The position numbers and the translations under genes are program-made. Positions 36,430 to 63,180 of a stretch of DNA of 64,000 nt are shown piece after piece (within the stretch, counting starts at the first letter, position 1; each line of letters begins with the position of its first letter). Source of the DNA: Hysterangium stoloniferum (Eukaryota > Basidiomycota > Agaricomycetes > Hysterangiales > Hysterangiaceae); the NCBI GenBank assembly GCA_015178975.1, contig WHVD01000120.1:62001-126000 (forward strand), given 5' to 3'. The notes under the pieces are model-generated. The model worked only from the letters and a program-made list of their open reading frames with translations, was not told the DNA's origin and ran no database searches.

Positions 36430-36720
36430 AAATACCACTTTATTCAACATTCAATTGAAAACGGCACCATACAACTCCATTGCCGCTCGACAAAAGAAAT
36501 GATCCTCGACATACTTACAAAATATGGAAAATAAGGAGAGTGATTAATATGGAAGAACAGGCAAAACATGACATCATTGAAGTCGCTCAGATCATGATGT
36601 CCAGGCAAATGAAATGGGTGAACAAGTTCTGACAAGGTCAAATTTTATAAACGACACACGATGAGCTGCCAGGCAAATGCACATTGGCAGGAAAGAGAAG
36701 CTGGCGGACTCACTTTTTTC
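36430..36720 (-). repeat. Block Z, copy at 36.4 kb
   Basis: The minus strand reads LSELVHPFHLPGHHDLSDFN. Inverted copies are at 41690-41930 and 62940-63180 (LSELVHPFNLHGHHDLSDLN, plus). It lies at the outer edge of the E unit, with an opposite-facing copy at the other edge. Confidence 0.65.
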
Positions 36721-37040
36721 ACCTGGCTTCATCCATAAACGTGTTTACTCCTCCTTTTCAGTCTTCACTCTTAATGGAAGTGTAACCCAATCTATTTCTT
36801 TTTTAATAAAAAGAGTGAAGAGTGAAAGCCGAGGATGGTGGACCCCAACTCAGCCGCACCAGTCGATACGTCGGCAGAAGGATAGAAAGAAAACGTTCTC
36901 TCACTGATGTTTGCATGAACACGAAGTACAAAGTCCCTTGTCAATATGCACATAAATCTTCAGATAAAGTAACCAAGCCAGTTTTGTACATACATCACAG
37001 CCTTTCTCTTTTTCACTTTATTTATGATAACTAATCTATT
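36721..37040 (+). CDS. Epsilon module, copy E
   Basis: Plus-strand frame with SRYVGRRIERKRSLTDVCM (36822-37034), the same as upstream of copies C and G. Another frame (KRVYSSFSVFTLNGSVTQS) is shared with copy G only. It is probably an exon or 3' end of an upstream gene on the MSDHE strand. Confidence 0.35.
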
Positions 37041-37266
37041 ATTTTCCATATTTACAGTCATAATGCTATCGTATAATATTTATGGTCCTCAGCGTTTAAA
37101 GGCCATCTTTGGAGGCGGGGCCTTTTCCAGTGACTTAGTAGACCAGTGTTAATTTGAACTACATTCAAAGCAGTGTCTCACAAACATAGAAAGAGCCTGA
37201 TGAACCTTGTCAACGGTTCTCTTTCCATTCTCGTGACACGCCTCTTGTGTATACCTCACGCTCCCC

Positions 37267-38300
37267 ATGTCTGACCACGAGGTAGTACTGAGTCACCCTG
37301 ACCAGGTCGAAGTGCTAACCCCCATTGATCTCGCCTACTGCCCTGGAATCTCAACGGATCACAGTCCTCGAAAGTCATTTTCAGAATATACTTCAGAGAC
37401 TATGGGCGTGTAATAGAGAGGGTCACGGCCTCTGTTACCACAGACAAGGTCACGAGCATGTATCGATCACCAAGGACGCATTTGATTCATTGGTTCAGCA
37501 ACTGGTATGTTAAGCTTTTGTTTCAAGAATCGACTCCAATGTGTCGGACTGTTTTTTCGTTGAGTGCCGTGGTTTTGCAACTTGCCTGGAGCTGCCACAA
37601 GGTTTGCTGGATTCATCAGGAATTGGGCAAGGCATGTCTGACATTGAGAGAGAAGCCATGACAAGGTGGTGCACACCTGTCATTCGTAATCCAACGGACG
37701 TCGAAGTTGGCCCCGGTCACATTTGTGGTCTGGCAATGGAGCGGATCGGGACAAAGCTACTGTATGGGACCAAGATATCCATGTTGGTTGGGAAGTGCTT
37801 CTTCAATACAAGACGTGTGGAGGAGCACCTAAGGGGGGTTGTAACGCTCATAGACACAGGCGAGGGGGAAAAGACAAGGAATAGGCTGCTTAAAAAATAG
37901 CTAACAGTGGGGCAATTGAGCATAATTGTTAAAGAGGGGGTGGATCTCTTGAGGCATGTTCATTCTGGTAAACGCCATCAATTGCATGCTAAAATCATTT
38001 TAAAGGAGGCCATCTTACCCGCGTAAAATCCGATATCGAGGGAAATGGCTTCTCATAAATACGTACACCACCTTTATATCCGGGCTCGGCACTAGCGAAG
38101 AAGCGGAGATCGGCAGAGTCATAGTAGTGCTGGTGCATGCAATCGATCACATGGTGTTTATTGAGGATTCTCCAGCTAAAATGGTTCCCCGCAACTTCCT
38201 GGTGACTGCTATGCTGTCACCTCGATATTCCTATCACACCTTGGCGGATACCTCTAAGCACCCTTAGACAATCGACCATTCCGTCGGGGAATAAACTCTT
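37267..38300 (+). pseudogene. MSDHE-family copy E
   Basis: Start ATG 37267 (MSDHEVVLSHPDQVEVL). Exon 1 ends at 37504 (TKDAFDSLVQQL) after a frame change in its middle. The intron is 37505-37564 (GTATGT...TTGAG). Exon 2 has GLLDSSGIGQGMSDIEREAM and RNPTDVEVGPGHICGLAMER, an in-frame TAG near 37898 and one base fewer just before the CTG/GTAAAC donor. A short intron ends TTTTAAAG, and exon 3 opens as WRPSYPRKIRYRGKWLLINT but is deleted after PRNFLVTAMLSPRYS. Exon 4 and the last exon are missing. It defines the donor and acceptor that are lost in copy C. Confidence 0.7.
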
Positions 38301-38339
38301 CAAATTAATAAAGGATTATATGGCTCTTCTCACTTGAGG

Positions 38340-38607
38340 GTAAATCCATACCCATAATGTTTGCATGGGGAGCCGTGCTAGTATGGGGAGAAATTGGAGG
38401 CACAGTTTGGTAAAAGTATCGGAAGATACGGATATCATTATCAGCCGTGTCAGCCTGAATAGGGGCCAGCTTTCCCGATCCCCGCATAGAATTCCGCAGC
38501 AAGGGACACACAGCCTGCCACCAGGGTCACACAGCATGGGCAAGTCTTCCTGCACATCACCTTCGATAAGGTATGTTGATGAGTTTGTGGCCATGCCCAA
38601 AGTCTAA
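38340..38607 (+). other. Conserved stretch downstream of copy E
   Basis: The frame VCMGSRASMGRNWRHSLVKV, then SIRYVDEFVAMPKV, is shared in position with copies C, F and G (G inverted at 61035-61390). It may be an exon or untranslated region before the beta module. Confidence 0.35.
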
Positions 38608-38974
38608 GCCTTGCCAAACACTGCACCATGACGGCCGAACAACAAAATTCCCAACAGTCCCGTCGCAGTTACAGCCCCTGCTCATAGTTGACAATGTCCC
38701 AGAAGCTCGTTCGTTTGCCCACTGTGTCTTGTCGAAACCCACGCAAGGTCTAGAGAAGGAGACTCAGAAAGAGATGCAACAGATGCAACAAGACAAGAGG
38801 GTACGGGCATGCCATTTACTTTGAAGATTTAGAGGAAGCATCACAGTTGCCGCAACTGTCCATGGATGTCGACAACCAGAAGCTCTCTCGCTGGTCACGT
38901 CCACTGAAGGGGATCATCAACCTCGTCAAGAGGATCCTGCACCCTGTTCTCAAACGCCAAAGCAATCAGTCCCA
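38608..38974 (+). CDS. Beta module, copy E
   Basis: Plus-strand frame with LLIVDNVPEARSFAHCVLSK and EKETQKEMQQMQQDKR, a possible 46-bp intron (GTACGG...CATCACAG), then LPQLSMDVDNQKLSRWSRPL, KGIINLVKRILHPVLKRQSN. The second part is basic. It is fused directly to gamma at 38975, exactly as in copy G. The copy at 56240-56520 instead continues into RDSRRC and a further linker. Confidence 0.45.
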
Positions 38975-39398
38975 AGTGGAAGGAGGCCGAGCTTGATTTG
39001 GGAGCTCCCAAGTTGGTGCGTCAGGTCGATGGATGTTTTGTCTTCATGGTTTGCCTTTGATTGGGTTGGCTAATGCTTCACTTCTCCTCCTCGTTTTATT
39101 TACAGGACAATGAAAGACAGCACAACTGACAAAATTGGACCTCGCTAGGATAGAAGAGGGGCAGCGGATTCCCAAGACTCAGTCGCTGCGTAGTGGCGCT
39201 GTAGGGAAACGACTGAGGTTGCACTCCATAGCATCGCATACATATATACGCGTGTGGGTGAAAAACGCGCTTGTACGATGAAAGGAAAAATATAAGTGGA
39301 TAGTCTAGCCCGATATACGATCTGGGTGTTCCCGCGTTTGGGGTATGAGCATTACCGGTTTTTGTCACAACAACATTGTTTGCCCCATCACACACAGT
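38975..39398 (+). repeat. Gamma repeat, left copy of the E unit
   Basis: Begins GTGGAAGGAGGCCGAGC. An inverted copy is at 41080-41570, and the same pair occurs in the G unit (56745-57130 and 59860-60250). It contains ATGAAAGACAGCACAACTGA and TATATACGCGTG. An intron-like GTTTGTC...TTTACAG suggests transcription on the plus strand, but no long frame is present. Confidence 0.65.
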
Positions 39399-39760
39399 AT
39401 TTGTACCTTGTCGGCTAAGACCCACATGAGCTGGTTTCGACTGGGCATAAAAGGCGGGGACGCAGTGCGTCTGGTACCGTAAAAAATAGTGGTGCGATAG
39501 CTGTCAAGAAGATGAATTCTATGTGAAAGAGGGTGAAATTGCCTGTAAGCAGGTGCGAAGAATCGATCGATGGGGTTTCTTTCATTGTGGGCTTTCATTG
39601 GGTTCATTAATGCGTCCCTTTGCTTCGTTTCCTTAATAGGACAATCAAAGAGCGCATGAACAGTCTCTTGTTTCGAGTCGAGGTCACGATGAACGCAAAA
39701 CAAAATATATGAAAAGTCTGTACAAGAACGTAAAAATAACCCATTGTCCACCATTTCCAA
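39365..39760 (-). CDS. ORF131, unrecognised, copy E
   Basis: A 131-codon frame starting MEMVDNGLFLRSCTDFSYIL and containing QETVHALFDCPIKETKQRDA and RTTIFYGTRRTASPPFM. The G unit has a copy of the same length up to the last few residues (58855), most differences being conservative. The ETVHALFDCP text resembles the Cys/His tail of LINE proteins, but the match is short. It is transcribed toward gamma, opposite to the MSDHE gene of the unit. Upstream (39770-40060, minus) are exon-like pieces also seen at 58620-58850 and 42330-42560. Confidence 0.5.
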   Translation of the reverse strand: MEMVDNGLFLRSCTDFSYILFCVHRDLDSKQETVHALFDCPIKETKQRDALMNPMKAHNERNPIDRFFAPAYRQFHPLSHRIHLLDSYRTTIFYGTRRTASPPFMPSRNQLMWVLADKVQILCVMGQTMLL

Positions 39761-40329
39761 TTCCCGTACTTACCACTGTGACTCTGCGGCGGCCTAATGC
39801 CACCCCTGTGCCATTGCCCTCCGTCCTATCATCTCTTCTGGGAACCGAAAACATCCACCGTGTATGCCCATATGACGGCTCTTAGTGGGTAGGAAGGCGT
39901 ATGGTCAGGAAACTAGGTGGAACTGCGAGTCATGTTCCCCATTTAGGCTGATGGAAAATGAACCACGCTCTACTTAGATCATAGAAGGCATGATAAATTA
40001 AGTTTTATAGCTCACATGGATTACTCGTCCCCATCACAGTCACACTGCAGCTAGTCGGAGATGGATCACGCTGGTAAAAGCTCCCCAGGCTGTGTCTTTC
40101 ACCACCTTATGATGAATAATCCACCCAATTAATATGCAAAGCGCGTATACCTAACAAATCCGCGGATGGGTTGAAGCTACCCAATAATAATCGAGCGCAT
40201 GTTTGGCTAGGAATATAATTTTTTAATGTATCAGTTAATATATCGAAGGGCTTTCGCCGGGATCGCCCCCCATTATGCTATTTGATCGCATGCAACGTCC
40301 GCCAATATTTAGCCCCACCTGATGTCGTG

Positions 40330-41000
40330 TCACAGGTTTAATCTATTGCACTACCGATGCCATAGACCCTACGACTACGCCAGTCAAGAATGAAGGAAGT
40401 TAGGTAGTCAAGGAAGTTACTCGGCCTCCCAGATATAAACACCAATGCATGTTTCTCGTCATCATACTTGCGCCATGTATTTTGGCTGTTTCAGCCCTCC
40501 TGGCGATCCTCCACCATTTGATGGGCGCTCCAAGCCTCGTGTGATTGTGACCCGTGTGATCACTGGTTGTGGAGAAAGAAGCCAAGCTAAAAATAGAGCC
40601 AATGTCTCCACATTAAAACCACAATTCAAAAAGCAGGGGCAAATAAAGAATTTGATCACCGAGACGTCCGAAAATCGGCTCAAATACTAGACACGAGTCA
40701 CGTACCACAGCCCACGGCCTCCCATGACCGACACTTAGCCCTAGCGACTTCCCTATCATGGGTCCCAAGGGCACCCATGTCAGATTCAGCGCCATTAAGA
40801 AGCATCCCTCCAACGCTAAAAAAAAAGGCGATACCGATCACACGTGACCTAAATTGATGCTTCGTTTCTCAATCGTCTGGTCTTTTTGTGTCTTTGGCCA
40901 AATAGAGGTTGTGTAGGGTATCGGCCGATATGGTTTCATTACATCTAAAACAATAAAGATAAATACTCTTAGTTTTGTCCATGAATAATTCAGACCCCGT
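40330..41000 (-). other. Delta module, copy 2
   Basis: The minus strand has DVMKPYRPIPYTTSIWPKTQ and KDQTIEKRSI, then LNLTWVPLGPMIGKSLGLSV and GHGRPWAVV followed by GTACGTGAC. After a TTTTTAG it continues SFSTTSDHTGHNHTRLGAPI and KWWRIARRAETAKIH. The same order in the inverted copy at 57140-58330 and the plausible intron favour this strand. No known domain. Confidence 0.45.
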
Positions 41001-41079
41001 ATTAGCCTGGAGGGGCCATAAAACAATAAATGGGCTAATTTTGGGGTCTGAACTAGTATTATGTTAACCGAATAATTTT

Positions 41080-41570
41080 GAGACGACAGGAACAATGTTG
41101 TTGTGACAAAAACCGGTAATCCTCATACCCCAAAACGCGGGAACACTGCCAGATCTTATATCGGACTAGACCACCCGCTTATATTTTCTCTTTCATCGTA
41201 CGAGCGCATTTTTCACCCGCACGCGTATATATGTATGCGATGGTATGAAGTGCAACCTTAGTCGTTTCCCTACAGCCCCGCTGGGCAGCGGCTGAGTCTT
41301 GGGCATCCGCTGCCCCTCTTCTATTCTAGCTTGGTCCAATTTTGTCAGTTGTGCTGTCTTTCATGGTCCGGTAAATAAAACGAGGAGAAGTAGTGAGGCA
41401 TTAGCCAACCCAATCAAAGCCAAACTATGACGCATCCATCGACCTGACGCAACAACTTGGGAGCTCCCAAATCAAGCTCGGCCTCTTCCACTTTTATTTC
41501 ATTTCCTTTCCATCCACATTCAATGCCCTCTCTCTTCTCACGCTCGTCGCATTGTAGATAGGCTCCATCT
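41080..41570 (-). repeat. Gamma repeat, right copy of the E unit
   Basis: Inverse of 38975-39398, extended outward by MEPIYNATSVRRE text (minus) that also occurs at 54610-54670 and 56690-56720. Around 41000-41080 it contains a short piece related to the intron before the last MSDHE exon (ATTAGCCT...AATTATTTTGAG), absent from the G unit. Confidence 0.65.
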
Positions 41571-41689
41571 TGGACAACGTCCTCCTACTCTCCCGACCTC
41601 CCAACCTCCCCAAACCCAAAATGTCTATTTCCACGAACCTCGTATGCCAATTTTGGAACCATCCCAGCATGGGGTTGGAGCCTGGTGGC

Positions 41690-41930
41690 TTATGATGGAG
41701 TCAGATGAACAAAGTAATTACGTCAGCTTCTCCTTCCTGTCAATGTGCATTTGGCTGGATGCTCATTTTCCATTGTTTATACAATTGGACCTTGTTAGAA
41801 CTTGTACACTTATTTCATTTACATGGACATCATGATCTGAGCGACCTGATTTATGCCATCTTTTCAGCAAAATTTTTAAAATTGTTTTCTTGCATATTTA
41901 TGACTATCTATATTTTCCATATTATCACTA
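41690..41930 (+). repeat. Block Z, copy at 41.7 kb
   Basis: Plus-strand text LLELVHLFHLHGHHDLSDLI, inverse of 36430-36720 and parallel to 62940-63180. It is the opposite-facing edge of the E unit. More diverged than the other two copies. Confidence 0.6.
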
Positions 41931-42329
41931 TTTCTATCCCCTGTCACAAAAGTGCCCCAGATCGACATAAGCTCAGCCCACCCCACCTCCACCCATCTGC
42001 ACCTCCCCATTCTGTGATCCAGTAGTCCACTGGCAGCTTATTCCCTGGCATACACGCTCATCCCAATCACACAAACCACATTAGTGCAATTACTAGTGGG
42101 TGTTTCTCACTCGGGTTATATGCAACATTGACAATGAGTAAAGAAACAACAAAATGCCCACCAGAGAGGATAATTACTTGGCACCCATTCCTGCACAATT
42201 GCACATCGTTGTATTGTTAGTGATAGATATAATGGGGTATCAACCTCTTCAGAAAGGAATTGTTGTCAGCAAGAGCCCATTCATTGGACTCAGCTACAAT
42301 TCACTTGAGGTATAAAACTTAATTAATAA

Positions 42330-42704
42330 TCGCTTGTACGATCTCAGTGGAGCATGGTTCATTTTCCAGCAGCCTAAATGGGGAAACTGATCATGAGGGA
42401 AAGCACCCCCACCATTACCTCTAGTGTCCCGACCATACGCCTTCCCACCCCACTAAGAGCCATCATATCGGCATATGCCGTCCATTTGTTTTTGTTCCCA
42501 GGAGGGAGGATAGGATGGAAGGCAACGGCACAGTGGTGGCATAAGACTGCCGAAAAGCTATGGGGGTCAGTGCAATCAGAATTGGAGATGGGGATAATGG
42601 GCTGGTTTTGGCACAGGATCTGGACTGCTCATAAGCTCGTCCAGCAAGTGCACCATGCCCAGTACCATTGTGTGAGTGCAGATCCTGAATTTAATGAAAA
42701 TTAA
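42330..42704 (+). CDS. Unrecognised ORF, 108 codons
   Basis: Frame from 42378 with PTPLRAIISAYAVHLFLFPG, GRIGWKATAQWWHKTAEKLW and GWFWHRIWTAHKLVQQVHHA, rich in Trp. The first part matches the exon-like sequence upstream of ORF131 in both units (inverted at 39790-40010, parallel at 58620-58840). It may be a relative of an ORF131 upstream exon. No domain recognised. Confidence 0.4.
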
Positions 42705-43360
42705 GGATGTATGAGAGAAACAAGTGGTGTAACGTACTGAGTACTAGATGATGAACCCCCCCAGATGCCCCTATACGACATCTCTGCATAGACTTCTATA
42801 TTTGCACAGAATATTAATTCCCCCAATACCATATTAGGATAAAGGAGTCACTACCTTCTCTGGATCCATTATTATTGATCCCTTCACTGTCCATTGCGGT
42901 GGTGGTAGCACTGGCGCCTGCATGTCGGGGGTTGAGTTGGCAAGACACAACATGGTGAACGAATGGGACAATCGGGAGCAATGCTGTCACAGGAATATCT
43001 GCAAGTATCGCTGATTTTTATTAGTTTTTATAGATCTGCGCAAAGGAATGCAGTGTATGAACCAAATGCTGGAGACAGGTCTGTCTGCATGCTCATACTG
43101 GCAACACTTTCTGATCAGTGGCTTCATCATCATCATCCATGAAGGAAAATTCTGTAAATAGTAGGATAGTTGAGTAATAGATGATGAAAAGTAAAAATAG
43201 CTGACACAAACCCAGTACTGTATACTCAGATCCATCATCACTAACAGTTTGCAACTTGGGATGGATGGTGGTATTTGTTTTGGGAGACTGATGTGGGGAT
43301 GGAACGCCTCATCACTGGGTCCTGCTCAAATTAAGTCCAGTAACTATCTAATGACATTAA
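42705..43360. other. No clear gene
   Basis: Short open frames only. Nothing is recognised until the membrane protein gene fragments at 43361. Confidence 0.4.
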
Positions 43361-43740
43361 TTAAATGATTTTGGAAAAACCTTGCACAATGCACTGGGTG
43401 AATGATCCCATCAATAGTGATCCACATAGCATGAGGGGGCCATACTCTCTAATATCGACCCCCTTCACCTTGTCTTCCCACGAGATGTGTGGGGTATAGT
43501 CCGGATGTTCATTGGCACTTTTGATGTTCCCATCATCCACATACACAATATGATGACTGGCAGTTTGTGACTTGGGCTGGAAGGTATTCACCTTGGGAAT
43601 GATATGGGGATGGAACATCCTAGCATTGGGTCCCGATCAAATGAGGCCAGAAGACATTAATTAAATGACAGCCTTACCCAATGTGCTGGGTGAATGATCC
43701 TGTGACAAGTGATCCATCTGTCATGAGGGGGCCAGCATTG
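43361..43740 (-). pseudogene. Two tandem 3' fragments of the membrane protein gene
   Basis: The minus strand reads PNARMFHPHIIPKVNTFQPK, VDDGNIKSANEHPDYTPHIS and LREYGPLMLCGSLLMGSF, matching the C-terminal exon at 35080-35310 (DGSLFTGSFAQRIWQGF) and its following exon (35347-35410). A second, shorter copy of the end (GPLMTDGSLVTGSFTQHIG) lies at 43660-43740. CpG is lower than in the 33-35 kb copy, so these are older. Confidence 0.55.
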
Positions 43741-43869
43741 GTGGAGAGATTAGAGCCACATGGGATGGCTCCACAGCAGCATGACAAGGAACAGGGTAGT
43801 AGTCGTGGCCATGGTTGGGCTAATCTGGTTGGAGGGGCTTCTTGCCATCCTTTTTCAGCCTGACAAAAT

Positions 43870-49800: not shown

Positions 49801-52418
49801 CCACCATTTGGATCAGGGGGGGGCCTTGCCAGTGTTTCCAGGCATGATATCTGAGGTGGCTAGGGATAGAGAGCTGAGTAGGGCAGTGGCACCCACTTCA
49901 ACATCTTGGGGGGAATGGTATTCTGGGGGTAGGGGGTTAGCACAGATGGAGTGGGAAAAAGCCTCACACCACTCTTTCCGCAAGGACAGGTCAATCCGGA
50001 AGGGATGTGGGCAGTCATTGGGGCCCAGTGGGTGGGGGGCTGGGAGGTGGATGACCCAGTGGATGGGGTTGTGGTCTGAGGCAGCAACCGAGTCAGGGAG
50101 GACCTCCCAGTCATGGACTAAGTTGCATTCAGTGGCCACATAGTTGACCCACGTTAGATCGATGATGGAGTTGGACTGGTTGGTCTGGCCAATGCAGGTT
50201 GGTTTGTCCAGGCAGTTAACAAGGGCAAAAGTGTTAGCAGCTGCCCCATCAGCGAGGTCATTTACTCTAGGGGAGGGGTGGCAGGGGTGGCTGCCAGTAA
50301 TTGCCCAGGATGGATGGTGGAGGTTGAGTCGCCGAGGATAAGGGTAGGGGTTGTGGCTGGGAGGTCAGAGTTGAGCAGTGTTTGGAGCGCCATCGAGTCC
50401 CTGCTGGTGCCAGCATTATAAACATTCACAGATATGAAGGAGAGGTCACCATAAGTGAAAGAGTTTGTGAGTATGTCTGGGGAGTTGAGAAGGTCCGGGC
50501 TGGGGAGGGCTGAGAGGCCAGGTGTGTTTCTATGGACAAAGGTGGCAACCCGGGGGGTCTGGTCAGGGGCGGTGAGGGGGAGGAAAGATTCCCATGCAGG
50601 GCATGAGACGGTGCCTTTGATGGTGGTCCCGGATGGGTCAGAGATAGAGCGACCTGTACCGATTTTGCCCCACCAGGGTTCTTGTAGGAAGATAATGTCA
50701 TAGTTGGAGAAGGTGTTGAGGATGAAGTGCATGCGGGTGTTGGAATGTGCTACATTGAGTTGGAGGCAGTGTAGCTGGAGGGGGGGCATTAGTCAAAGGT
50801 GATGTCAGTGTCGGAGGGGGGGACAGGTTGAGAACTGGGAGGAGGGGAGGCCTGGGACATGGAGGGGGGGGGACCACATATTTGCGGCACTCAGGGCGGT
50901 CAGGGGAGTCAGCTACGTGAGGGCCAGAGCAGTTGACACACCTGAAGTCATGGGGGCAGTCTTGGTCAACTGGGAGATTGGCTAACTTACATGCATTGCA
51001 TTTAGCGCGGTGGACAGCTTCAGCCTGATGGTCCCCACAGAGGCAACACTTTGGGCGGGAGTTGCATTGCGCAGTGGAGTGGCCGAGGGACCAGCAGTTA
51101 GGGCATTGGCAAAGTTTTGGCTTGTCGACCCGGCACTTGATGGTGACAGGGGCACCAAACATGAAGAATTGGGTTTGGAAAGCTTCTTTGAGGAGGGAGC
51201 CATCAGGATCCTCAAATGCCATCGAGATGGAGGACTTGAGGCCAGAGATTGAGTCCAGGGGCTGTATCCAGGAAGAGGGTTGGGTGAGGGTGATTTTGGA
51301 GGCGAAGGGAAGGTCATTGAAGGAGTTGAGGAGGGAGGTGTTGGAGAGAACAGGGCCGCCTGGGAACTCTCAGGCAAGGACACCCACCAGGATGATCTTA
51401 GACCAGTGTGTATCACGTGAGATGGTAGGGTCAGTGCCAAGATCCAGGGCCTCTCCGATGGATGGGAGATGTGCCGAGATGAGGGCAGGGGAGGTGGGGG
51501 GGGAAGGTGATGATAAGGTTGCCAGCTGAGTTCCAGTGCGTGCTGATGGCCTGGAGGCCACAAGCTGTGGGGACAGCTTTGAACTTGGCATTTATCCTCC
51601 TGGTAATGATGAGGGGAGGGCGGCTGTCGGGAGAAGGCGGGTTGCCTTTGAAGCGGACCACGAAACGGATTGGGGAGGTAGGCTTGCGTGGGGGAGGTTT
51701 GGGGGTTTTTGGGGCCGTAGGGGCTGGGTTGGGTGGGCTGGAGGCGACTGCAGTGAAGGACGGGGGACTGCGGGAGGCCAGGGTGGTCGGGGGGAGTTTT
51801 TAGCTTGGCGGGGGTTGGTGCGGGTTGCAGACGCGATTTGGCATTCCAGACATGACATCTGGGCTGAGATGGATGTTTGTAGTTGCTGGAGGTAGTGGGC
51901 GACGTTGCCATCCAGAGCGGGCGGAGGAGAGGGGAGGGGCGGGGAAGGAGGGGCGGCCTGGGAAGGGTCAGAAGGCCAGGCGTGGGTATCCTTCGAGGCT
52001 CGGCCGAGGTGTGCGCGAATTTCGGAGCAAGCGTCGATGACAGAAGGATCATCCATGGCCACGCCGTGGGGGACAGGGCTCGAGATGATGTCAATGAGAC
52101 TAAGGCAGAAGGAGGCCCACCCGGCAATCGGGTCATCAACAGCGGAGGGGTCAGAAAAGATGTGGGTTAGGTTCGTTACAGCGTCGACGGAGTAGGAAAG
52201 GAAGAGTGGGGGGTCGGAGGGGGTAGGTGGCTCAGCTACAGGGTACGTGGAGCTCGGCGTGGGCAAAGGGGGATCCTCGTCCATACCATGGCCAGGGCCA
52301 GGGTCGTGAGCAAGTTTTGCCTTTTTCAGGGTATTCGGGGTATACTCGGGGGAGCGGGGACGACGGCTTGTGGGCAGAGCAGGCGTAGATGGTGGTGGCA
52401 CGAAGTGACCATCCATGT
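46822..52418 (-). mobile_element. Tad1-like LINE, nearly full length
   Basis: Read on the minus strand. ORF1 (52440 to about 50700) is Pro-rich and ends in three zinc-knuckle-like motifs (CPNCWSLGHSTAQC, CCLCGDHQ, CVNCSGPHVADS). An AP-type endonuclease follows (50789 to about 50050, LQLNVAHSN, FLQEPWWG, SDHNPIHW), then reverse transcriptase (49779-48240, YRPIALLECLGKLLEKL, YVDD near 48730), RNase H (about 47790-47300, YTDGS, SDNQAAL) and a C-terminal Cys/His motif (SCPCGTEDIQSH, about 47090), stopping at 46908. Frames are interrupted: the endonuclease frame stops after TPATPPLE (50262), there is a TGA after GKAPP, another after EKAQTEAF at 48238, and shifts occur in ORF1 and near the G-runs at 47926 and 48027. 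Two of these look like CGA to TGA changes. Confidence 0.9.
47926..48051. repeat. G-runs in the LINE (C-runs in its coding strand)
   Basis: A run of 15 G at 47926-47940 and clustered runs of 7 and 10 or more G at about 48027-48049. They fall in the proline-rich linker between reverse transcriptase and RNase H and coincide with frame changes there. Confidence 0.8.
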
Positions 52419-54290
52419 CACGTGAGGACCTCAATGTCATTATAAACTATTTCAAATTCTGGATGATGTCGTAAGTTTTACCGTTGCTGTTTTTGGTGAA
52501 TGGCCAACATGAGAAATATGCAGATACGGTCGCAACCATGGACACATTGAATTGATTTACCCGCAAATATCGATTTTCTCCTCCTGTTTCACGCAGGATC
52601 CTTGGATCCGCAGCATTTATGGAACTCTATTGGATATAGCGCTTGACATTTTACAGACCAAGATCGATTCGTTTGCGTGTGCTGACTCTTCTCGCTACAT
52701 CGCTTATACACGCATTATAAATGAACTCGATGGATTATTTAAGGATGGCACATTGCTGGAAGAAAACATTGATCGAAGTCATATCATTGTTTCCATCGGG
52801 ATTAAAATGCTGCAGTGAGTACAGTTACATCGTCGCAGACCTGTCGTCTCAAAATCATTCGGCTGTCAGAATACTAATTCAGCGCCCGAAATCAGACACT
52901 TCAGTGTTGGATGGCGCCTCGATCCTAATAAGTGGCTCTATACGACTAACATATTTACTCATTGCCTGAATGTCGTTTGACCTATTTAAGATTCTTCGAA
53001 GAGTAACGCCGCAAAGTATGATATGCGAAGGATGCTTTTATCAGTCCTTAAAGTGCTCAAACGATGATTTAATATTGCTACCCCCATGACTGGGAACTTT
53101 GCCTTCTTACACCTGTTCTTTGACAGCAAGCACTCTTAGATAATCGAGCGTTCCGTTGGGGAATGAACTTTTCAAATTCATAAAGATTATATACCGATCT
53201 ATCATTAAAGGGTAAATACATACTCATCTGGTCTGCATAGAGAACCGTGCTAGAATGCGGAGAAAGCGGGTAGAAGCGTCGGATAAATCCAAATATCCTG
53301 ATCAGGCATGTCCGCTAGGTCTCCGGTTACCCGATTCCGGCTGCTCAAGTCCTGAGCTGGCGTCCAGTCGACTTGTGGATCCTGATGTACCCAGGTGTCA
53401 GGCTTACGGCGCTCTGCTCATAATCCCGCACAAACTGATCACTGATCCAGATGCTGGCAGCCTCCAGTTCCCTGCCAATAGGGGCCAGCGCTCCATAGGA
53501 TCTGGGTTTTGGTTGACGAGTTGAATTCATGCTATTGAAACTGACTAGCATTTCTTCTTTATTTCTGTAGTTGGGCAAGTCTTATCGCGCGTCGCCTTCA
53601 ATAGGGTATATTAACGAGCTGAGGCTAGGCCCAAAGCCTAAGCCTCCCTGCCACACACTGCACCATTACGGACGAACAAGACAATATTGTCCCGTCACTG
53701 TCACAGCACCTGCTCATAGTTGGCAACGAACCAAGAGCTTTTGATTTTAGCAGCGTGTCTCGTCGAAACCGGCGTAAAGTCCAGAGAAGGAGATAAGAAA
53801 GAAATTGAACAGATGCAACAAGACAAGAGGGTACAGGCATACCATTTCCTTTTAATATCTAGAGAAAGCGCCACCATTGCCGCAGCCGACCATGGATGTC
53901 GACGACCGGAAGCTCTCTCGCTCGTCACTTCAATATGTCCAAGAGCGCCGACCCAGTCATACTGAAAAACTCATGAGATACGTTGGCTTTCCTAATCTTC
54001 CTACAATGTCCACAGGAACAGCGTCAGGAAAGGTTTCCACCTCACTCCCATGGCGGCAGACATCCGCGAAAAGGCCAGAGAAGGAGAAAAAGGAAGCAGA
54101 AAGGTACCAGGATCACTGTTGCCGCAACTGCCAATGAATATTCACACCCAGAAGCTCTCTCACTCGCCACTTCCACTCAACGGGATCATAAGCCTCTGAA
54201 ACAGATCTTGCACCCTGTCTTCAAACGCCAAAGCAATCAGTCCCATCGATATTCGAGACGTTGTTCACGCCGCCACTGTTGAAGTATAAT
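52419..54290 (+). pseudogene. MSDHE-family copy F with beta modules
   Basis: Begins within exon 3 directly after the LINE (EDLNVIINYFKFWM), then a 53-bp intron (GTAAGT...ATGCAG) and a full exon 4 (ILQTKIDSFACADSSRYI, ENIDRSHIIVSIGIKMLQ, to 52818). The last exon is mostly missing. From about 53640 a series of beta modules follows (MDVDDRKLSRSSLQYVQE, GFPNLPTMSTGTASGK, VAATANEYSHPEALSL, ILHPVFKRQSNQSHRYSR). CpG-rich, so it is young despite being truncated. Exons 1-2 are not seen; the LINE lies where they should be. Confidence 0.65.
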
Positions 54291-54299
54291 AATCTTGCA

Positions 54300-54689: not shown

Positions 54690-55660
54690 TGTCTCCCAAA
54701 ATAGCTGTTGGGTCTTCATGTATGATATTGAGTTCTTCTAAGAAGTGTCTTGTCACATGGCTTCGCAGGCGGGTTCTGAAAGTGCCAAGGTAGTCTGTTT
54801 TCTGGATGACCAAGATACAGGTCCTGGTCCAAGAAATATTGTCCTCAGGATCCCCTGTAAAATCCCCATTTGAATATCTCTGTAAGTATCAATTTCCTCC
54901 TCCTAAGCGTGATTCTTGCTCTCTAGTCGTAAACAGATATTCATTTGGCGAGATTGGAATGGGCAAGAGGAGGACTAGATGAACACTGAGATAGTTTACT
55001 GGCCGGATGAGCAATATCAGAACACGATATGACAGCTGCGAACATGGGACTTCCAATAAGCTCTTGACAGTGCAGTTTGATTGTTTCTTCTTTTTCCTCA
55101 CTGGTTTCTGGCCGTGCGATGGAACTAAATCCGATTCCAAATGGGATAGGAGATCACGTTGGTTTAGAATACTTCATTTCCTTCCCACAACTACCACTGT
55201 TTAAGCGATGGATGTACGTTTGATTATGCACGATGCAGCACCTCAGTGATGTATCAAGTGCTTACACAGCGAGTCTTCGGCTAGGAAACTCCGAAGACAC
55301 AATACTAACAGAACAGACACAGCTGAACGATAATGAATCGGTCAACATATCGGGAAAGTTGATAAAACAACGCACCCCGTTCTCAAAGATACAAGCCAGA
55401 ACCAACTGATTAACACCCCTAGGCCATGAACCAGAGAAATCGATGAAAAGAAAGAAGTAGAAATATCCAAAGAAAGAAGGAGAAGGAGAACTAGAAAAGA
55501 AAAGGAATGAGTATGTCTAGCCTCTGCCACTACTCGTCCGCCGCTGCCCCTACTTTTTGTCTGCCGCTGCCCCTCTTGCCCCTGCTTTCGCTTCTGCCCC
55601 TGCTTAACCCACTTACCTCTCTGTCCGCCATCAGTTACATTGTGGTGGAGGCGCACCTGG
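54690..55660 (-). repeat. Block X, right copy, inverted
   Basis: Inverse of 35410-36390. The minus strand has ESDLVPSHGQKPVRKKKKQS, RVLILLIRPVNYLSVHLVLL and the hydrophobic LVLLLLLSLDISTSFFSSIS. The coding words agree closely with the left copy. Confidence 0.65.
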
Positions 55661-55876
55661 AGGCAATGGTTCCATCCGAGCAGCTAGAGGTCCACCAAGT
55701 GTCTTTGCCAAACGTTGTGGTGGGTAGTTGAACATGCGGGACTGGCTTTCCACCCTATTCCCACCCCAGGTCAGGTGCAAGTGCTGTCGCACTGAGGTAT
55801 CCGTCACTTGCCTAGATGATAACATGTGAGTATAATTGCCAAAATTAATGAAACGAAATTGTACTTGTCTAACCAT
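55631..55876 (-). CDS. C-terminal exon of an unrecognised gene
   Basis: The minus strand, after an ATCTAG acceptor, reads QVTDTSVRQHLHLTWGGNRV, PPQRLAKTLGGPLAARMEPL and PPGAPPPQCN followed by TGA. It joins block X at the same place where the left copy joins the membrane protein gene end, so X follows different upstream exons in the two places. Confidence 0.35.
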   Translation of the reverse strand: MVRQVQFRFINFGNYTHMLSSRQVTDTSVRQHLHLTWGGNRVESQSRMFNYPPQRLAKTLGGPLAARMEPLPPGAPPPQCN

Positions 55877-55911
55877 GTTGGGGGTTCTCCTCTATTATTA
55901 AAAGCCTTGTC

Positions 55912-56175
55912 TTGTCTCGCCTTTCTCTTTCCCTAGTAATGGTGTTGAGGTGTTCAGGACTTATGTTCGAAATTCTTTGTCCTTCTAAGAAGTCAATGTT
56001 AGTTGGTGTAAGAAATGTAGCCAACGGGACTCACCTGCAACCCGAAGATGTTCTCACCCTGGAGGACAGACTGTTTGAGACATGCGAACCATCACCATGT
56101 CCTTTATACCGGCGCTGGTTCTTGGGGTTGTGCATTGATGCCGACGACCCGTCGGATTCGGCTTCATCCCGGTAA
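55912..56175 (+). CDS. Unrecognised ORF
   Basis: Frame with SKKSMLVGVRNVANGTHLQP, EDVLTLEDRLFETCEPSPCP and CIDADDPSDSASSR. It lies just upstream of an extra beta module on the same strand. CpG-rich and exon-like. No domain recognised. Confidence 0.35.
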   Translation: MSRLSLSLVMVLRCSGLMFEILCPSKKSMLVGVRNVANGTHLQPEDVLTLEDRLFETCEPSPCPLYRRWFLGLCIDADDPSDSASSR

Positions 56176-56239
56176 GGACATCTGGGATGGCTATCGGTCG
56201 GAGACCTTGTGCTTCGTGGTACTTTAGGGGCTGGTGCTA

Positions 56240-56530
56240 GGGTGGTCTTCAGTTTGAGACCCACGCAAGTTCGAGAGAAGGTGACTAAGAAAGAGATGCA
56301 ACAGATGCAACAAGACAAGAGGGTACGTGCATGCCATTTACTTTGAATATTTAGAGGAAGCATCACAGTTGCCGCAGCTGTCCATGGATCTCGACAACCC
56401 GAAGCTCTTTCGCTCGTCACTTCCACTGACGGGGATCATAAGCCTCGTCAACAGGATCCTACACCCTGTCCTCAAACGCCAAAGCAATCAGTCCCAGCGA
56501 GATTCGAGGCGTTGTTGAGGCCCGACCAAG
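56240..56530 (+). CDS. Extra beta module
   Basis: Plus strand: KEMQQMQQDKRV, the same GTACGTGCATGCC...CACAG gap, then LPQLSMDLDNPKLFRSSLPL, TGIISLVNRILHPVLKRQSN and QSQRDSRRC. Unlike the E and G units it continues through a linker (56530-56740) to gamma, so this arrangement is probably the older one. Confidence 0.45.
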
Positions 56531-56689
56531 TACGCCGTTACCACCGATGCAGTCCGTTGTAATGCCTCGACGTAGAAGTTAGCTCGCAAGCAAAACCGGG
56601 TCAGTGATTTATCGACGAGGTTCGTGGAAATAGACATCGTCGCGGACTTTGAGGGGACAGGTTTGGGTCGTTGTACAAGATGGAGCCTA

Positions 56690-57130
56690 TCTACAATGCG
56701 ACGAGCGTGATAAGAGAGGTGGCATTGAATGTGGATGGAAAGGAAATGAAATAAAAGTGGAAGAGGCCGAGCTTGATTTGGGAGCTCCTAAGTTGTTGCG
56801 TCAGGTCGATTGGGTTGGCTAATGCTTCACTTCTTCCCCTCATTTTATTTACCGGACCATGAAAGACGGCACAACTGATAAAATTGGACCGAGCTAGAAT
56901 AGAAGAGGGGCAGCGGATGCCCAAGACTCAGCCGCTGCCCAGCGGGGCTGTAGGGAATCGACTAAGGTTGCACTTCATACCATCGGATACATATATACGC
57001 GTGCGGGTGAAAAATGCGCTCGTACGATGAAAGAGAAAATATAAGCGGGTGGTCTAGTCCGATATACGATCTGGCAGTGTTCCCGCCTTTTGGGGTATGA
57101 GCATTGCCGGTTTTTGTCACAACAACATTG
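56690..57130 (+). repeat. Gamma repeat, inner copy of the G unit
   Basis: GTGGAAGAGGCCGAGC begins at about 56758, with the MEPIYNATS text upstream. It pairs in inverse orientation with 59860-60250, bracketing delta and ORF131, as in the E unit. Confidence 0.65.
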
Positions 57131-57283
57131 TTCCTGTCGTCTGAATTATTAATGGACAAAACTAAGAGTATTTATCTTTATTGTTTTAGATGTAATGAAA
57201 CCATATCGGTCCATACCCTACACAACCTCTATTTGGCCAAAGACACAAAAAGACCAGACGATTGAGAAACGAAGCATCAATTT

Positions 57284-57783
57284 CTAGCCTTCCTCTTGGG
57301 CACGAAGTCAGGGCTCAGGGTGGTTTCTAAGTTCATTTGCCAAACTGCTGCCTTTGCGAACCAGCCTAACAGACCTCAGAACACCATTTCGACCCAACCT
57401 GGCACGCCTGAAACCACACAGACTCACGACCCACCCTAGAGGCCCCCTACCTTGCCACGGACCTCCCGCTTGACCTACGCCTCCTATCTCCTGGACACAG
57501 AAAAGTCTCCTTCTAGCTATTTGTATTTCCTTTGTGTACTTATATCCCCTTCGCATGCCTGTATTATCCTCTTGTGTCTCTTTCTTTGTGCCTACAACCC
57601 CCACTTCCCACCTCACACCGAAAACCCAGACTGCTTCCCTCCCACCAAAATCACTCATACCCATGTAGCTCACTCGGCACTTCATAATTCAGTAACATAG
57701 TTTAGTGGGGACACCATGCCCCTGGCCACAGTTAGTCCTTGTTACTTGAAGCGGGATACAAATATATCAAAAAAAAAAAAAAA
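57284..57783 (+). mobile_element. Poly-A-tailed retro-insert
   Basis: A 500-bp insert that ends in 15 A (57769-57783) and splits delta between CATCAATTT and TTAGGTCACG. The E unit has the uninterrupted site (inverted, about 40845-40860). It may be a SINE, a 5'-truncated LINE or a retrocopied transcript. A C-rich frame (PRTSRLTYASYLLDTEKSPS) has no recognised relative. Confidence 0.7.
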
Positions 57784-58330
57784 TTAGGTCACGTGTGATC
57801 GGTATCGCCTGTTTTAAGCGTTGGAAGGATGCTTCTTAATGGCGCTGAATCTGACATGGGTGCCCTTGGGACCCATGATAGGGAAGTCGCTAATGCTAAG
57901 TGTCGGTCATGGGAGGCCGTGGGCTGTGGTACGTGACTCGTGTCTAGTATTTGAGCCGATTTTCGGACGTCATGGTGATCAAATTATTTATTTCCCCCTG
58001 CTTTTTGAATTGTGGTTTTAATGTGGAGACATTGACTCTATTTTTAGCTTGGCTTCTTTCTCCACAACCAGTGATCACATGGGTCACAATCACACGAGGC
58101 TTGGAGCACCCATCAAATGGTGGAGGATCGCCAGGAGGGCTGAAACAGCCAAAATACATGGCTCAAGTATGATGACGAGAAACATGCATTGGTGTTTATT
58201 TCTGGGAGGCCAAGTAACTTTGTTGACTACCTAACTTCCTTCATTCTTGACTGGCATAGTCGTAGGGTCTATGGCATCGGTAGTGCATTGACCTGGTATA
58301 GATTAAATCTGTGACACGACATCAGGTGGG
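57784..58330 (+). other. Delta module, copy 3, inverted
   Basis: Plus-strand text LNLTWVPLGPMIGKSLMLSV, then after TTTTTAG SFSTTSDHMGHNHTRLGAPI. Its first part (PYTTSIWPKTQKDQTIEKRS) lies at 57190-57283 before the retro-insert. Very similar to 40330-41000. Confidence 0.5.
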
Positions 58331-58854
58331 GCTAAATATTGGCGGATGTTGCATGCGATCAAATAGCATGGTGGGGGGCGATCCCGGCGGAAGCCCTTCG
58401 CTATATTAACTGATACATTAAAAGATTATATTCCTAGTCAAACATGCGCTCGATTATTATTGGGTAGCTTCAACCCATCCGCGGATTTGTTGGGTATACG
58501 CGCTTTGTATATTAATTGGGTGGATTATTCATCACAAGGTGGTGAAAGACACAGCCTTGGGAGCTTTTACCAGCGTGATCCATGGGGACGAGTAATCCAT
58601 GTGAGCTATAAAACTTAATTTATCATGCCTAGTATGATCTGAGCAGAGCGTGGTTCATTTTCCAGCAGCCTAACAGGGAACATGACTCGCAGTTCCACCT
58701 AGTCTCCTGATCATATGCATTCCTACCCACTAAGAGCCGTCATTTGGGCATACACGGTGCATGTTTTCGGTTCCCAGAAGAGCTGATAGGACGGAGGGCA
58801 ATGGCCCAGGTCCATTAGGCCGCCGCAAAGTTACAGTGGTAAGTACAGCGGGAA

Positions 58855-59228
58855 TTGGAAATGGTGGATAACGGGTTATTTTTTCGTTCTTCTACAGACT
58901 TTTCGTATTTTTTTTTTTGCATTCATCTTGACCTCAACTCTAAACAAGAGACTGTTCATGCGCTCTTTGATTGTCCTATTAAGGAAACGAAGCAAAGGGA
59001 CGCATTAATGAACCCAATGAAAGCCCACAATGAAAGAAAACCCATTGATCCATTCTTCGCACCTGCTTCCAGGCAATTTCAACCTCTTTCACATAGAATT
59101 CATCTTCTTGACAGCTATCGCACCACTATTTTTTATGGTACCAGACGCACTGCGTCCCTGCCTTTTATGCCCAGTCGAAACCAGCTCATGTGGGTCTTAG
59201 CCGACAAGGTACAAATACTGTGTGTGAT
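58855..59228 (+). pseudogene. ORF131, copy G, cut by MITE-2
   Basis: MEMVDNGLFFRSSTDFSYFF, QETVHALFDCPIKETKQRDA and RTTIFYGTRRTASLPFM. The frame is intact until MITE-2 enters at 59229, replacing the last residues (QTMLL in copy E) with element sequence. A possible upstream exon is at 58620-58850. Confidence 0.55.
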
Positions 59229-59848
59229 GGAGGATAACCGAAAACTTTAAAAGTTGTTTATCCACTAAAGTATATATATTTATATTGTTTGTTGTAAAAT
59301 TAATATTTAATCAAATTCAGCCTATCAGATAATATTCTGGAGAATAAGGAAATATTAATATCTATCTTGTATCTGACAAAAGTTAGTCAAACAAACATAT
59401 ATAGATTATCCTTTTGGGGATAAATTCCACAACATGGATTGGTTGGCCAGATAGTTCTGGTTAACTTTCTAAACCAAATAAATTTAAATTATATGAACTA
59501 CATTTGAAAGTTTGTATAATATACAAGAGAATGCATCTCATCCCAAGGATTAAGTCATAACCCAAATAATTTTGGTTAACTATAATGTTTGTGGACATTT
59601 TAAAAGTCATGGAGATACTAGAGAATGTATTTTATCCCAAAGATTAGGTAACAACCCAGATAATCTTGTATAACCATGACATTTGTGCATATTTTAAGGG
59701 AATGTACAAGTCTTAAAGATGAAATTTTGGGTTAATGAAATATAAATTTCTAAAACATGTAGTCATAGCCAGGAGAAATAGTCTCACTTAAAAATATGAG
59801 GAGTTTTTCATAAAATTTCGTGTATTCAATGAATTGTGACTGTCCTCC
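59229..59848. mobile_element. MITE-2, copy 2
   Basis: A 620-bp element, GGAGGATAACCG to GACTGTCCTCC, flanked by GAT on both sides (59226-59228 and 59849-59851). The E unit has the empty site GTGTGATGGGGC (inverse, about 39383-39395) with a single GAT, which proves the ends and the 3-bp duplication. It has two 94-bp direct repeats (starts 59527 and 59621), against three in copy 1. Confidence 0.9.
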
Positions 59849-59859
59849 GATGGGGCAAA

Positions 59860-60250
59860 CAATGTTGTTGTGACAAAAACCTGTAATGCTCACACCCCAA
59901 ATGCGGGAACACCCAGATCGTATATCAGGCTAGACTATCCGCTTATATTTTTCCTTTCATCATCCAAGCGCGTTTTTCACCCACACGCATATATATGTAT
60001 GCGATGCTATGGAGTGCAACCTCAGTCATTTCCCTACAGCCCACTACGCAGCGACTGAGTCTTGGGAATCCGCTGCCTCTGTTCTATTCTAGCTCAGTCC
60101 AATTTTGTCAGTTGTGCTGTCTTTCATTGTCCTGTAAATAAAACGAGGAGGAGAAGTGAAGCATTAGGCAACCCAATCAAAGCCAAACCATGAAGACAAA
60201 ACATCCATCGACCTGATGCACCAACTTGGGACCTCCCAAATCAAGCTAGG
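59860..60250 (-). repeat. Gamma repeat, outer copy of the G unit
   Basis: Inverse of 56745-57130 and equivalent to 38975-39398. It joins the beta module at about 60250 with the same junction as the E unit. Confidence 0.65.
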
Positions 60251-60401
60251 CCTCCTTCCACTTGGGACTGATTGCTTTGGCGTTTGAGGACAGGGTGCAG
60301 GATCCTGTTGACGAGGCTTATGATCCCCTTCAGTGGACGTGACGAGCGAGAGAGCTTCTGATTGTTGACATCCATGGACAGTTGCGGTAACTGTGATGCT
60401 T

Positions 60402-60794
60402 TGTAAGGCTGTCGGTATCAGCCTCACTCAGTCAACACGGACAGGACTAAGTTTTCGTTATTTTTACATAACAGTAGGATACAAGGTGAATGTGAGGTTC
60501 CCGAGGGAAGAGTGGGGAAAGGATTAATGGTCAAGGAGAAGATTTTCTATCACTATAGGATATGGGGTTATTTATATAGAGTCAAGGTGAATGGGGTGGA
60601 AGAACAAGGAACCGCATGATCAGGCACAGGGGTGCTACTTAACAATAAAGTGGCGGATCAATGAGTGGCTGATGGGAGAGGTTGGTGATGATGACTGCAT
60701 GATAAGGCACAAGGGTGCTACCAAGTGGTGGAACAATGAGTGGTTGATGGGAGAGGTTGGTGATGACGTATGTGGGAAGGTGGCCAGGCTTACA
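60402..60794. mobile_element. Short solo-LTR-like insert
   Basis: A 393-bp insert in the G-unit beta module. It starts TGTAAGGCTGTCGG and ends CCAGGCTTACA, with TGCTT on both sides (60397-60401 and 60795-60799). The E unit lacks it (about 38835-38850). Its interior has two copies of a roughly 75-bp repeat (AATGAGTGGNTGATGGGAGA). TG...CA ends and a 5-bp duplication suit a small LTR. Confidence 0.7.
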
Positions 60795-60799
60795 TGCTT

Positions 60800-61062
60800 C
60801 CTCTAAATATTCAAAGTAAATGGCATGCCCGTCACCTCTTGTCTTGTTGCATCTGTTTCATCTCTTTCTTAGTCTCCTTCTCTAGACCTTGCGTCGGTTT
60901 CGACAAGACACAGTGGGCAAATGAAAGAGCTTCTGGGACATTGTCAACTATGAGCAGGGGCTGTAACTGTGACGGGACTGTTGGGAATTTTGTTGTTCGG
61001 CCGTCATAGTGCAGTGTTTGGCAAGGCTTAGACTTTGGGCATGGCCACAAACTCATCAACAT
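60800..61062 (-). CDS. Beta module, copy G
   Basis: The minus strand has PSQLQPLLIVDNVPEALSFA, HCVLSKPTQGLEKETKKEMK and QMQQDKR. The basic second part lies beyond the LTR-like insert (60395-60250, CPQTPKQSVP in another frame). Very similar to copy E. Confidence 0.45.
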
Positions 61063-61390
61063 ACCTTATTGAAGGTGACGTGCAAGAAGACTTACCCATG
61101 CTGTGTGACCCTGGTGGCAGGCTGTCTGACCCTTGCTGCGGAATTCTATGCAAAGCCGTCAGCCTGATGCCTGGATGCCTCAGACACGATCAGTCAACTG
61201 GCTCAGGACTTAGGCAGCGGGCATCGGGAAAGCTGGCCCCTATTGAGGCCGACACGGCTGATAATGATATCCATATCTTCTGATACTTTTCCAAACTGTG
61301 CCTCCAATTTCTCCCCATACTAGCACGGCTCCCCCATGCAAACATTATGGGTATGGATTTACCCTCAAGTGAGAAGAGCTGTATAATCCT
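61035..61390 (-). other. Conserved stretch between copy G and its beta module
   Basis: Inverse of 38340-38607 with one extra segment (about 61145-61215) that is absent from copy E. The extra text (TCAGACACGATCAGTCAACT, inverse) resembles copy C near 21210-21240, so copy E has a deletion here. Confidence 0.35.
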
Positions 61391-61739
61391 TTATTAATTT
61401 GAAGAGTTTATTCCCCAACAGAATGGTCGATTGTTGAAGGGTACTTAGAGGTATCCGCCAAGGTGTAATAGGCATGTCAAGGTGACAGCATAGCAGTCAC
61501 CAGGAAGTTGCGTGGAACCATTGTAGGTGGTGAAGCCTCGATAAAGACGATGAGATCGATTACATGCGCCATCACTACTATGACTCTGCCGATATTTGCT
61601 TCTTCGCTAGTGCCAAGGCCATATATAAAGGTGGTATATGTATTTATGAGAAGCCATTTCCCCCGATATCAGATTTTACGCGGGTAAGACGGCCTTCTTC
61701 AACATGATTTGAGCATTCAATGGATCGCGTTTACCAGAA

Positions 61740-62435
61740 GCTAACATTCCTCAAGAGATCCACCCCCTCTTTAACAATTATGCTCAATTTCCCACTGTTA
61801 GCTGTGTTTTAAGCAGTCTATTCCTTGTCTTTTCCCCCTCGCCTGTGACTGTGAGCCTTACAACCCTCCTTTGGTGCTCCTCCACATGTCATGTGTTTAA
61901 GAAGCACTTCCCAACCAAAATGGATATCTTGGTGCCATACAGTAGCTTTGTCCCGTTCCGCTCCATTGCCAGACCACAAACGTGACCGGGGCCAACTTCA
62001 ACGTCTGTTGGATTACAAATGACAGGTGTGCACCACCCATTCATGGCTTCTCTCTCAATGTCAGACATTCCTTGCCCAATTCCTGATGAATCCAGCAAGC
62101 CTTGTGGCGGCTCCAGGCAAGTTGCAAAACCACAGCACTCAATGAAAAATCAGTCCAACACATTGCAGTCAATTCTTGAAACAAAAGCTTACAATCCCAG
62201 TTGCTGAACCCATGAATCAAATCCGTCCTTGGTGATCGATACATGCTCGTAACCTGGTCTGTGGAAACAGAGGCCGTGACCCTCTCTATTACATGCCCAT
62301 CGTCTCTGAAGTATATTCTGACAATGACTTTCAAAGGCCTGCGATCCGTTGAGATTGGAGGGCAGCAGGCGAGATCGCTGGGGGTAGCACTTCGACCTGG
62401 TCGGGGTGACTCAGTACTACCTCATGGTCGGACAT
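61740..62435 (-). pseudogene. MSDHE-family copy G
   Basis: Start at 62435 (MSDHEVVLSHPDQVEVLPPA). Exon 1 has one extra base near LESH, giving a TGA. Exon 2 (about 62130-61740) has GLLDSSGIGQGMSDIEREAM and RNGTKLLYGTKISILVGKCF and is interrupted near 61890. A GTAAACGC donor follows exon 2. Downstream (61740-61400) exon 3 is partly deleted in the same way as copy E, and exon 4 is absent. Shared deletions show that E and G descend from one truncated ancestor. Confidence 0.65.
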
Positions 62436-62659
62436 GGGGAGCGTGAGGTATAGACAAGAGGCGTGTCACGAGAATGGAAAGAAAACCATCGATAAGGTTC
62501 ATCAGGCTCTTTCTATGTTTGTGAGACACCGCTTTGAATGTTGTTCGAATTGCCCATTAACACTGGTCTACTAAGTCACTGGAAGCCTCCAAAGATGACC
62601 TTTAAACACTGAGTGCCATAAATATTATCTGATAGCATTATGACTGTAAATATGGCAAA

Positions 62660-63033
62660 GAATATATTAGTTATCATAAATAAACTGAAAAAGAGAAAAG
62701 CTGTGACATATGTACAAAACTGGCTTGGTCAATTTATCTGAAGATTTTTGTGCATATTGACAAAGGACTTTGTACTTCGTTTTCAGGCAAACATCAGTGA
62801 GAGAACCTTTTCTTTCTATCCTTCTGCCAACGTATCGACTGGTGCAGCTGAGTTGGGCTCCACCATCCTCGGCTTTCACTCTTCATTCTTTTGATTAAAA
62901 AAGAAAGAGATTGGGCTACACTTCCATTAAGAGTGGAAAAGGAGGAGTAAACACGTTTATGATGAAGCCAGATGAAAAAAGTAATTCCACCAGCTTCTCT
63001 TTCCTGCCAATGTGCATTTGCCTGGCAGCTCAT
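62660..63033 (-). CDS. Epsilon module, copy G
   Basis: The minus strand has SCTSRYVGRRIERKGSLTDV and, in another frame, KRVYSSFSTLNGSVAQSLSF. Same position and strand relative to the MSDHE start as in copies C and E. Confidence 0.35.
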
Positions 63034-63180
63034 CGTGTGTTGTTTATAAAATTTGACCTTGTCAGAACTTGTTCACCCATTTAATTTGCATGGACACCAT
63101 GATCTGAGCGACTTAAATGATGTCATGTTTTCCCTGTTCTTCCATATTCATCACTATCCTTATTTTCCATATTTCCACAC
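62940..63180 (+). repeat. Block Z, copy at 63 kb
   Basis: LSELVHPFNLHGHHDLSDLN on the plus strand, inverse of 36430-36720. It marks the outer edge of the G unit. Confidence 0.65.

Follow-up and report, generated by a model that had tools for sequence, protein, structure and literature searches.

Mirror-image blocks in a contig of Hysterangium stoloniferum as probable debris of an uncharacterised, locally duplicating gene family

The window considered here is a stretch of 64,000 nucleotides from the basidiomycete Hysterangium stoloniferum (assembly GCA_015178975.1, contig WHVD01000120.1, positions 62,001–126,000 of the forward strand). All coordinates are positions in this window unless a contig is named; its two mirror-image blocks are called A and G, loci carry L-numbers and contigs C-numbers. 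Comparison of the window with itself gave a collinear match between A and G in opposite orientations, 36520–41643 (+) against 63174–56615 (−), in six ordered pieces of 88–98% identity (Table 1), with E = 0 for the longest of them. An earlier, sequence-only reading of this DNA had proposed an inverted duplication of a multi-module unit starting at 36430. Indeed, the matches are long, collinear and on opposite strands, but the common start is 36520/63174 rather than 36430. The likeness of G to one other locus, L014, reaches about 63818, beyond the common start of A and G.

Table 1. Features of the window (start and end given in ascending order; percentages are nucleotide identities)
Feature	Start	End	Strand	Remarks
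Block A	36520	41643	+	upstream region, 3′-truncated broken gene, spacer, gamma, centre, inverted gamma, spacer end
Block G	56615	63174	−	collinear inverted counterpart of A, plus three inserts
A/G piece 1	36520	38485	+	63174–61217 in G, 91.0%
A/G piece 2	38484	38841	+	61151–60794 in G, 95.5%
A/G piece 3	38836	39389	+	60401–59849 in G, 94.8%
A/G piece 4	39385	40855	+	59230–57781 in G, 92.0–92.3%
A/G piece 5	40851	40995	+	57283–57139 in G, 97.9%
A/G piece 6	41071	41643	+	57150–56615 in G, 88.1%
Open gene	21524	23438	−	562 codons, five exons (23438–23199, 23137–22740, 22683–22261, 22207–21914, 21857–21524); model from sequence only
Broken gene in A	37267	38253	+	exons 1–2 and part of 3
Broken gene in G	61514	62435	−	broken copy
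Another broken exon-2 copy	19449	19814	+	three stops
Left flank module of A	35408	36388	+	also 55648–54668 (−), 94%
Gamma, left arm of A	38974	39380	+	0.4-kb module
Centre between arms of A	39381	41090	+	from window self-comparison
Gamma inverted, right arm of A	41091	41493	−	89.8% to left arm
Inverted remnant of upstream region 36563–36738	41690	41864	−	80.7%
G insert 1	60402	60793		392 bp; AAGCAT on both sides
G insert 2	59231	59848		618 bp; 94-bp tandem repeats; related copy at 11790–12510
G insert 3	57284	57780		497 bp; opens with homopolymer T when read along G (plus strand: poly-A)
LINE-like element	48238	49779	−	513-aa frame with reverse transcriptase (Pfam RVT_1, E 9.9e-28); strong GC skew; further open frames up to 52166
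Tc1/mariner-like transposase frame	30291	31211	+	306 aa (HTH_Tnp_Tc3_2, E 3.1e-11); flanked by inverted pair 30054–30285 / 31662–31431
Foldback-like inverted repeat	34281	35266		about 1 kb; 51-bp tandem repeat in loop
tRNA-like match	12737	12816	+	Rfam, 36.7 bits, no ARAGORN call; perhaps a tRNA-derived repeat

Both blocks contain a truncated gene, termed the MSDHE gene in the sequence-only reading, which overlooked that an open version lies in the same window. This version was recognised by following the MSDHE gene to its homologue at 22.4–23.9 kb: positions 36870–38253 of A are 75% identical to 23863–22414, and the minus strand there bears a predicted open gene of five exons. The match of A to this open copy ends at 22414, and the gene copies of A and G, both without the 3′ part, contain stops, in agreement with the shared truncation that had been proposed. 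The predicted introns of the open gene are 61, 56, 53, and 56 nt long and three of them are of the GT-AG type. The initial model of intron 2 (22739–22684, minus strand) was dropped because it had no fitting splice site, and the intron fits solely as GC-AG, a site found in all five aligned copies. The exon breaks of the window copy recur in other open paralogues. The nearly complete copy in L040 (C25:174400–180900) is 58–68% identical per exon at the amino acid level and aligns from residue 7 of 562, because the locus begins there; the copy in L039 is open through most of exon 3, and that in L038 has a frame broken near the end of exon 3.

Searches with exons 2, 3, and 5 yielded 1079, 582, and 1042 first-look candidates, 150 of which were scored in each case, and three-exon loci were joined from rows picked by eye (99 of 150 for exon 2, 74 of 150 for exon 3, and 71 of 151 for exon 5). 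At least 35 loci have exons 2, 3, and 5 in order, and 19 of the 35 are without a stop in these three exons. The best 150 of the 1079 exon-2 rows occupy 39 of 554 contigs, and the eight richest contigs account for 84 of them; 80 of 111 neighbouring pairs among these rows share the same orientation. Spacings of 4.7–5.8 kb occur 20 times in contigs with at least three copies, whereas 2000 uniform random placements gave 6.9 on average and never more than 16; counting all pairs with this spacing, 16 of 21 are in the same orientation. In L040 two gene copies stand head to tail, 5.6 kb apart, the second being cut by the end of the locus, and between them lie, in the order found in A, pieces resembling the A spacer 38585–38974 (77%) and the upstream region from 36715 onwards (78%). 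The reverse transcriptase of the long interspersed nuclear element (LINE) of the window served as control: its 91 rows merged into 63 loci on 54 contigs, with at most three per contig and only 17 of the 63 on the top eight contigs. The gene family is, as judged from the best rows of longer lists, physically clustered beyond this dispersed control.

How the open copies evolve can be judged from the ratio of non-synonymous to synonymous substitution rates (dN/dS), which was 0.49–0.77 in the 10 pairs of five copies (one of them, L038, broken) compared across 255–546 codons. For exon 2 the median was 0.60 in 66 pairs of 12 other stop-free copies, a value open to bias since stop-bearing copies were left out. 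Simulated neutral change of the window gene at 0.10–0.22 per site introduced a mean of 6–12 stops and left the frame open in 0 or 1 of 1000 runs, and at 0.05 per site in 40 of 1000 runs. Judged from the simulation and the dN/dS values together, the open copies appear to have been kept open while the protein sequence changes fast.

For the 562-aa protein, neither Pfam (E up to 10) nor the prokaryotic NCBIfam (E up to 1) gave a match, and no transposase was recognised in it at these limits. A pattern scan of IMG/VR viral contigs revealed no relative, and the PDB gave two matches at chance level (E 0.16 and 2.7). With 10 open frames (5 inside A, 1 inside G) and a six-frame reading of the blocks, Pfam returned nothing better than E 0.015. 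A literature search found nothing on the five-exon gene family in titles and the beginnings of abstracts. AlphaFold models of exon 3 alone and exon 2 alone had a mean predicted local distance difference test score (pLDDT) of 47 and 41 and were not used.

The blocks themselves are repeated far beyond the window. A probe of 1966 bases from the block start was compared with the assembly, the best 40 of 347 candidates being scored and pieces being merged into places if within 1 kb on one strand. At least 60 pieces match this probe; they make up about 44 places, 13 of which cover essentially the whole of it, and are spread over 24 contigs. Since about 44 places match the first 2 kb, A and G are not a recent two-copy segmental duplication, and the notion of a single pair of copies has to be abandoned. 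Among the matches listed, the probes for the centre, gamma, and the left flank gave 70, 40, and 40, respectively, with 40 candidates scored each. Two sets of block-type copies (on contigs C225, C86, C265, C436 and on C193, C293, C151, C504, C208, C239) have near-equal probe scores and agree in their internal order, suggesting that sub-families were amplified recently. L012 and L015, as also L017 and L018, are 98.7–98.8% alike across 6–8 kb and could be haplotypes. Such pairs are what one would cite if one of the two blocks were an assembly artefact, namely a duplicated haplotype. A and G, however, stand in one contig and differ by 2–12%, depending on the segment, and by three inserts, which makes this explanation extremely improbable.

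Where the copies begin bears on whether they are units of a mobile element. Likeness to the probe begins at position 1–2 in 19 of the 44 places, at 44 in 10, at 150 in 1, and at 341–901 in 14; it should be noted that such a start may reflect internal loss and does not by itself establish an end. An alignment round the common start comprised 18 copies, namely A, G, and 16 of 20 fetched loci, each of them trimmed to roughly 10 kb; L019 and L028 share part of their contig. Three kinds of left flank were distinguished: the first in A, L009, L010, L011, L012, L013, L015, L020, L024, L025, and L028; the second in L016–L019, where it joins the block exactly at the base of 36520; and the third in G, L014, and L027. 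About 95 bases before 36520 are common to the first and third kinds, excepting A, L009, and L024. The three kinds of flank and the varied starts indicate that the blocks are mosaic. The sequence-only reading had left the choice between a mobile unit and a segmental duplication. Duplication is supported, but what is duplicated is an old multi-copy family, and a discrete unit with constant ends was not borne out in general, the identical left end of L021 and L022, discussed below, being the instance in its favour.

The insertions that had been taken for later additions to G correspond to three inserts in G relative to A, at sites where the flanking A/G matches overlap, by 5–6 bases at each, resembling target duplications. 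L009 runs through the sites of the 392-bp and 618-bp inserts with neither present, and at the third site about 122 bp are found in it. Two smaller differences look like losses or alternative modules in A. About 143 bp at 36520 are absent from A, L009, and L024, and a difference of 66 bp at 38484/38485 seems to go back to a loss from A, since G and other copies whose alignment breaks there (e.g., L009, L013, L014, and L024) carry the additional bases. In L021, 165-bp direct repeats (7616–7780 / 8604–8767 in reverse-complement coordinates, 97.6% alike) enclose about 1.15 kb; this stretch is, from its structure, a putative small insert bounded by long terminal repeats, and L022 has about 107 bp there. 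Nested inserts such as those of G and L021, and the mosaic of modules, would also be expected if A and G were simply a nest of unrelated transposons multiplied by segmental duplication, with the gene as a passenger. But the tandem unit repeats the succession of upstream region, gene, and a piece of spacer, at about 77–78% identity, and the exons of the gene have many matches of their own, so that we consider such a nest quite improbable.

The second striking property of the blocks is their symmetry. Gamma is present in both orientations in A, in G, and in 9 of the 20 fetched loci (L009, L010, L011, L013, L020, L024, L026, L027, and L028), in a single orientation in another 9, and absent from L016 and L025. 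The distance from gamma to gamma is 1.3–2.0 kb (2.7 kb in G including inserts), and the longest inverted arms in one piece, in L010, are about 2 kb long and 92.9% identical. The copies with gamma in both orientations are therefore read as inverted dimers; of the right arm in A, on this reading, gamma and part of the upstream region are left. The end of the centre of A, 41000–41090, resembles 52930–52840, which lies within a stretch, 52412–52932, resembling 21795–22319 (exon 4 and part of exon 5).

These findings are best accommodated, with a probability of roughly 0.55, by an uncharacterised, locally duplicating multigene family, decayed units of which were fused and copied again. A and G would be decayed derivatives of a unit of about 5.6 kb consisting of an upstream region, the five-exon gene (about 560 aa, function unknown), and a spacer. 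For this origin speak the open gene copies, the clusters with their head-to-tail example, and the same order in A with a 3′-truncated gene. The family would have grown by local tandem and inverted duplication through unequal exchange, breakage, and repair. Head-to-head fusion of a truncated unit with an inverted one may have taken place in one lineage, round a centre of 1.3–2 kb, and the resulting inverted dimers would then have been copied on as pseudo-units, swapping flanking modules and gathering ordinary insertions. Clusters would on this mechanism arise from recombination and not from excision and insertion of a discrete element.

Several observations weigh against this gene-family reading, and most of them are what an undescribed mobile element would lead one to expect, in which the 562-aa protein is the element's own mobility or helper protein and A and G are non-autonomous, internally deleted, inverted derivatives. 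L021 and L022, on different contigs, start at the same bases (position 517 of L021 and 562 of L022 in block orientation) and have different outer flanks, as do copies of a mobile unit; this is a candidate true left end. A has a terminal-like inverted pair, 36563–36738 / 41690–41864, and such pairs are present in several other block copies; as proven transposon ends the pair was rejected, because flanks and starts vary. Block-type pieces are also found on large contigs, e.g., C1 of 4.4 Mb, and copy number is high. The moderate dN/dS values are weak for a host gene. In addition, the counts are from the best rows of longer lists, some contig pairs may be haplotypes, and few contigs supply most of the sequence. 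Against a mobile element, however, are the varying starts of similarity and the alternative left flanks, a protein without a Pfam match, and a clustering and orientation bias unlike that of the LINE control. The spacer of L040, the tandem unit, yielded no inverted copy of the upstream stretch, and in the few junctions viewed by eye no target duplication was recognised round a whole block. On balance, a new gene family together with its debris accounts for the data better than a defined mobile unit does, and we regard the mobile element as the main, though less probable, alternative. That the protein, more specifically, brings about its own spread within a novel class of fungal elements, building head-to-tail arrays and shedding palindromic, gene-truncated dimers that spread further, is in our opinion unlikely.

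Comparison with known systems gives partial likenesses. Non-autonomous derivatives of DNA transposons can have rearranged or inverted ends, and the blocks resemble them in the truncated gene, the inverted arms, and the many copies, but constant ends were seen in one pair of blocks only and no target duplication of the whole unit was recognised in the few junctions viewed. Satellite-like arrays of kilobase units are a general notion to which the head-to-tail units and the recurring spacing would conform, whereas here the units have drifted apart (about 80%) and contain a gene with introns. The Crinkler genes of an oomycete are reported to be a clustered, fast-evolving multigene family with fragments and pseudogenes (PMC3726527). 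Many copies, recombined fragments, and fast change are common to both. This does not mean that there is any kinship in sequence or function, and none is claimed; the 562-aa protein matched no known domain in the searches given above. Besides the blocks and the LINE-like element, the window holds a Tc1/mariner-like transposase frame, a foldback-like repeat, and a tRNA-like match (Table 1). Elsewhere in the assembly, HSP70 exon matches are separated by gaps of about 40–60 nt, and DUF6534, a family typical of mushroom-forming fungi, has 21 matches as against none in 14 prokaryote controls; both suggest a genome of that group.

An uncharacterised fungal gene family, unmatched in the collections searched and with its open copies clustered, can become a visible share of the repeat content, and the broken, palindromic by-products of this family resemble unknown transposons. 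Should the protein promote its own copying, a new kind of mobile element would be at hand. Should it be the product of a host gene, the weak constraint and the local duplication may point to a fast-changing role in recognition or conflict.

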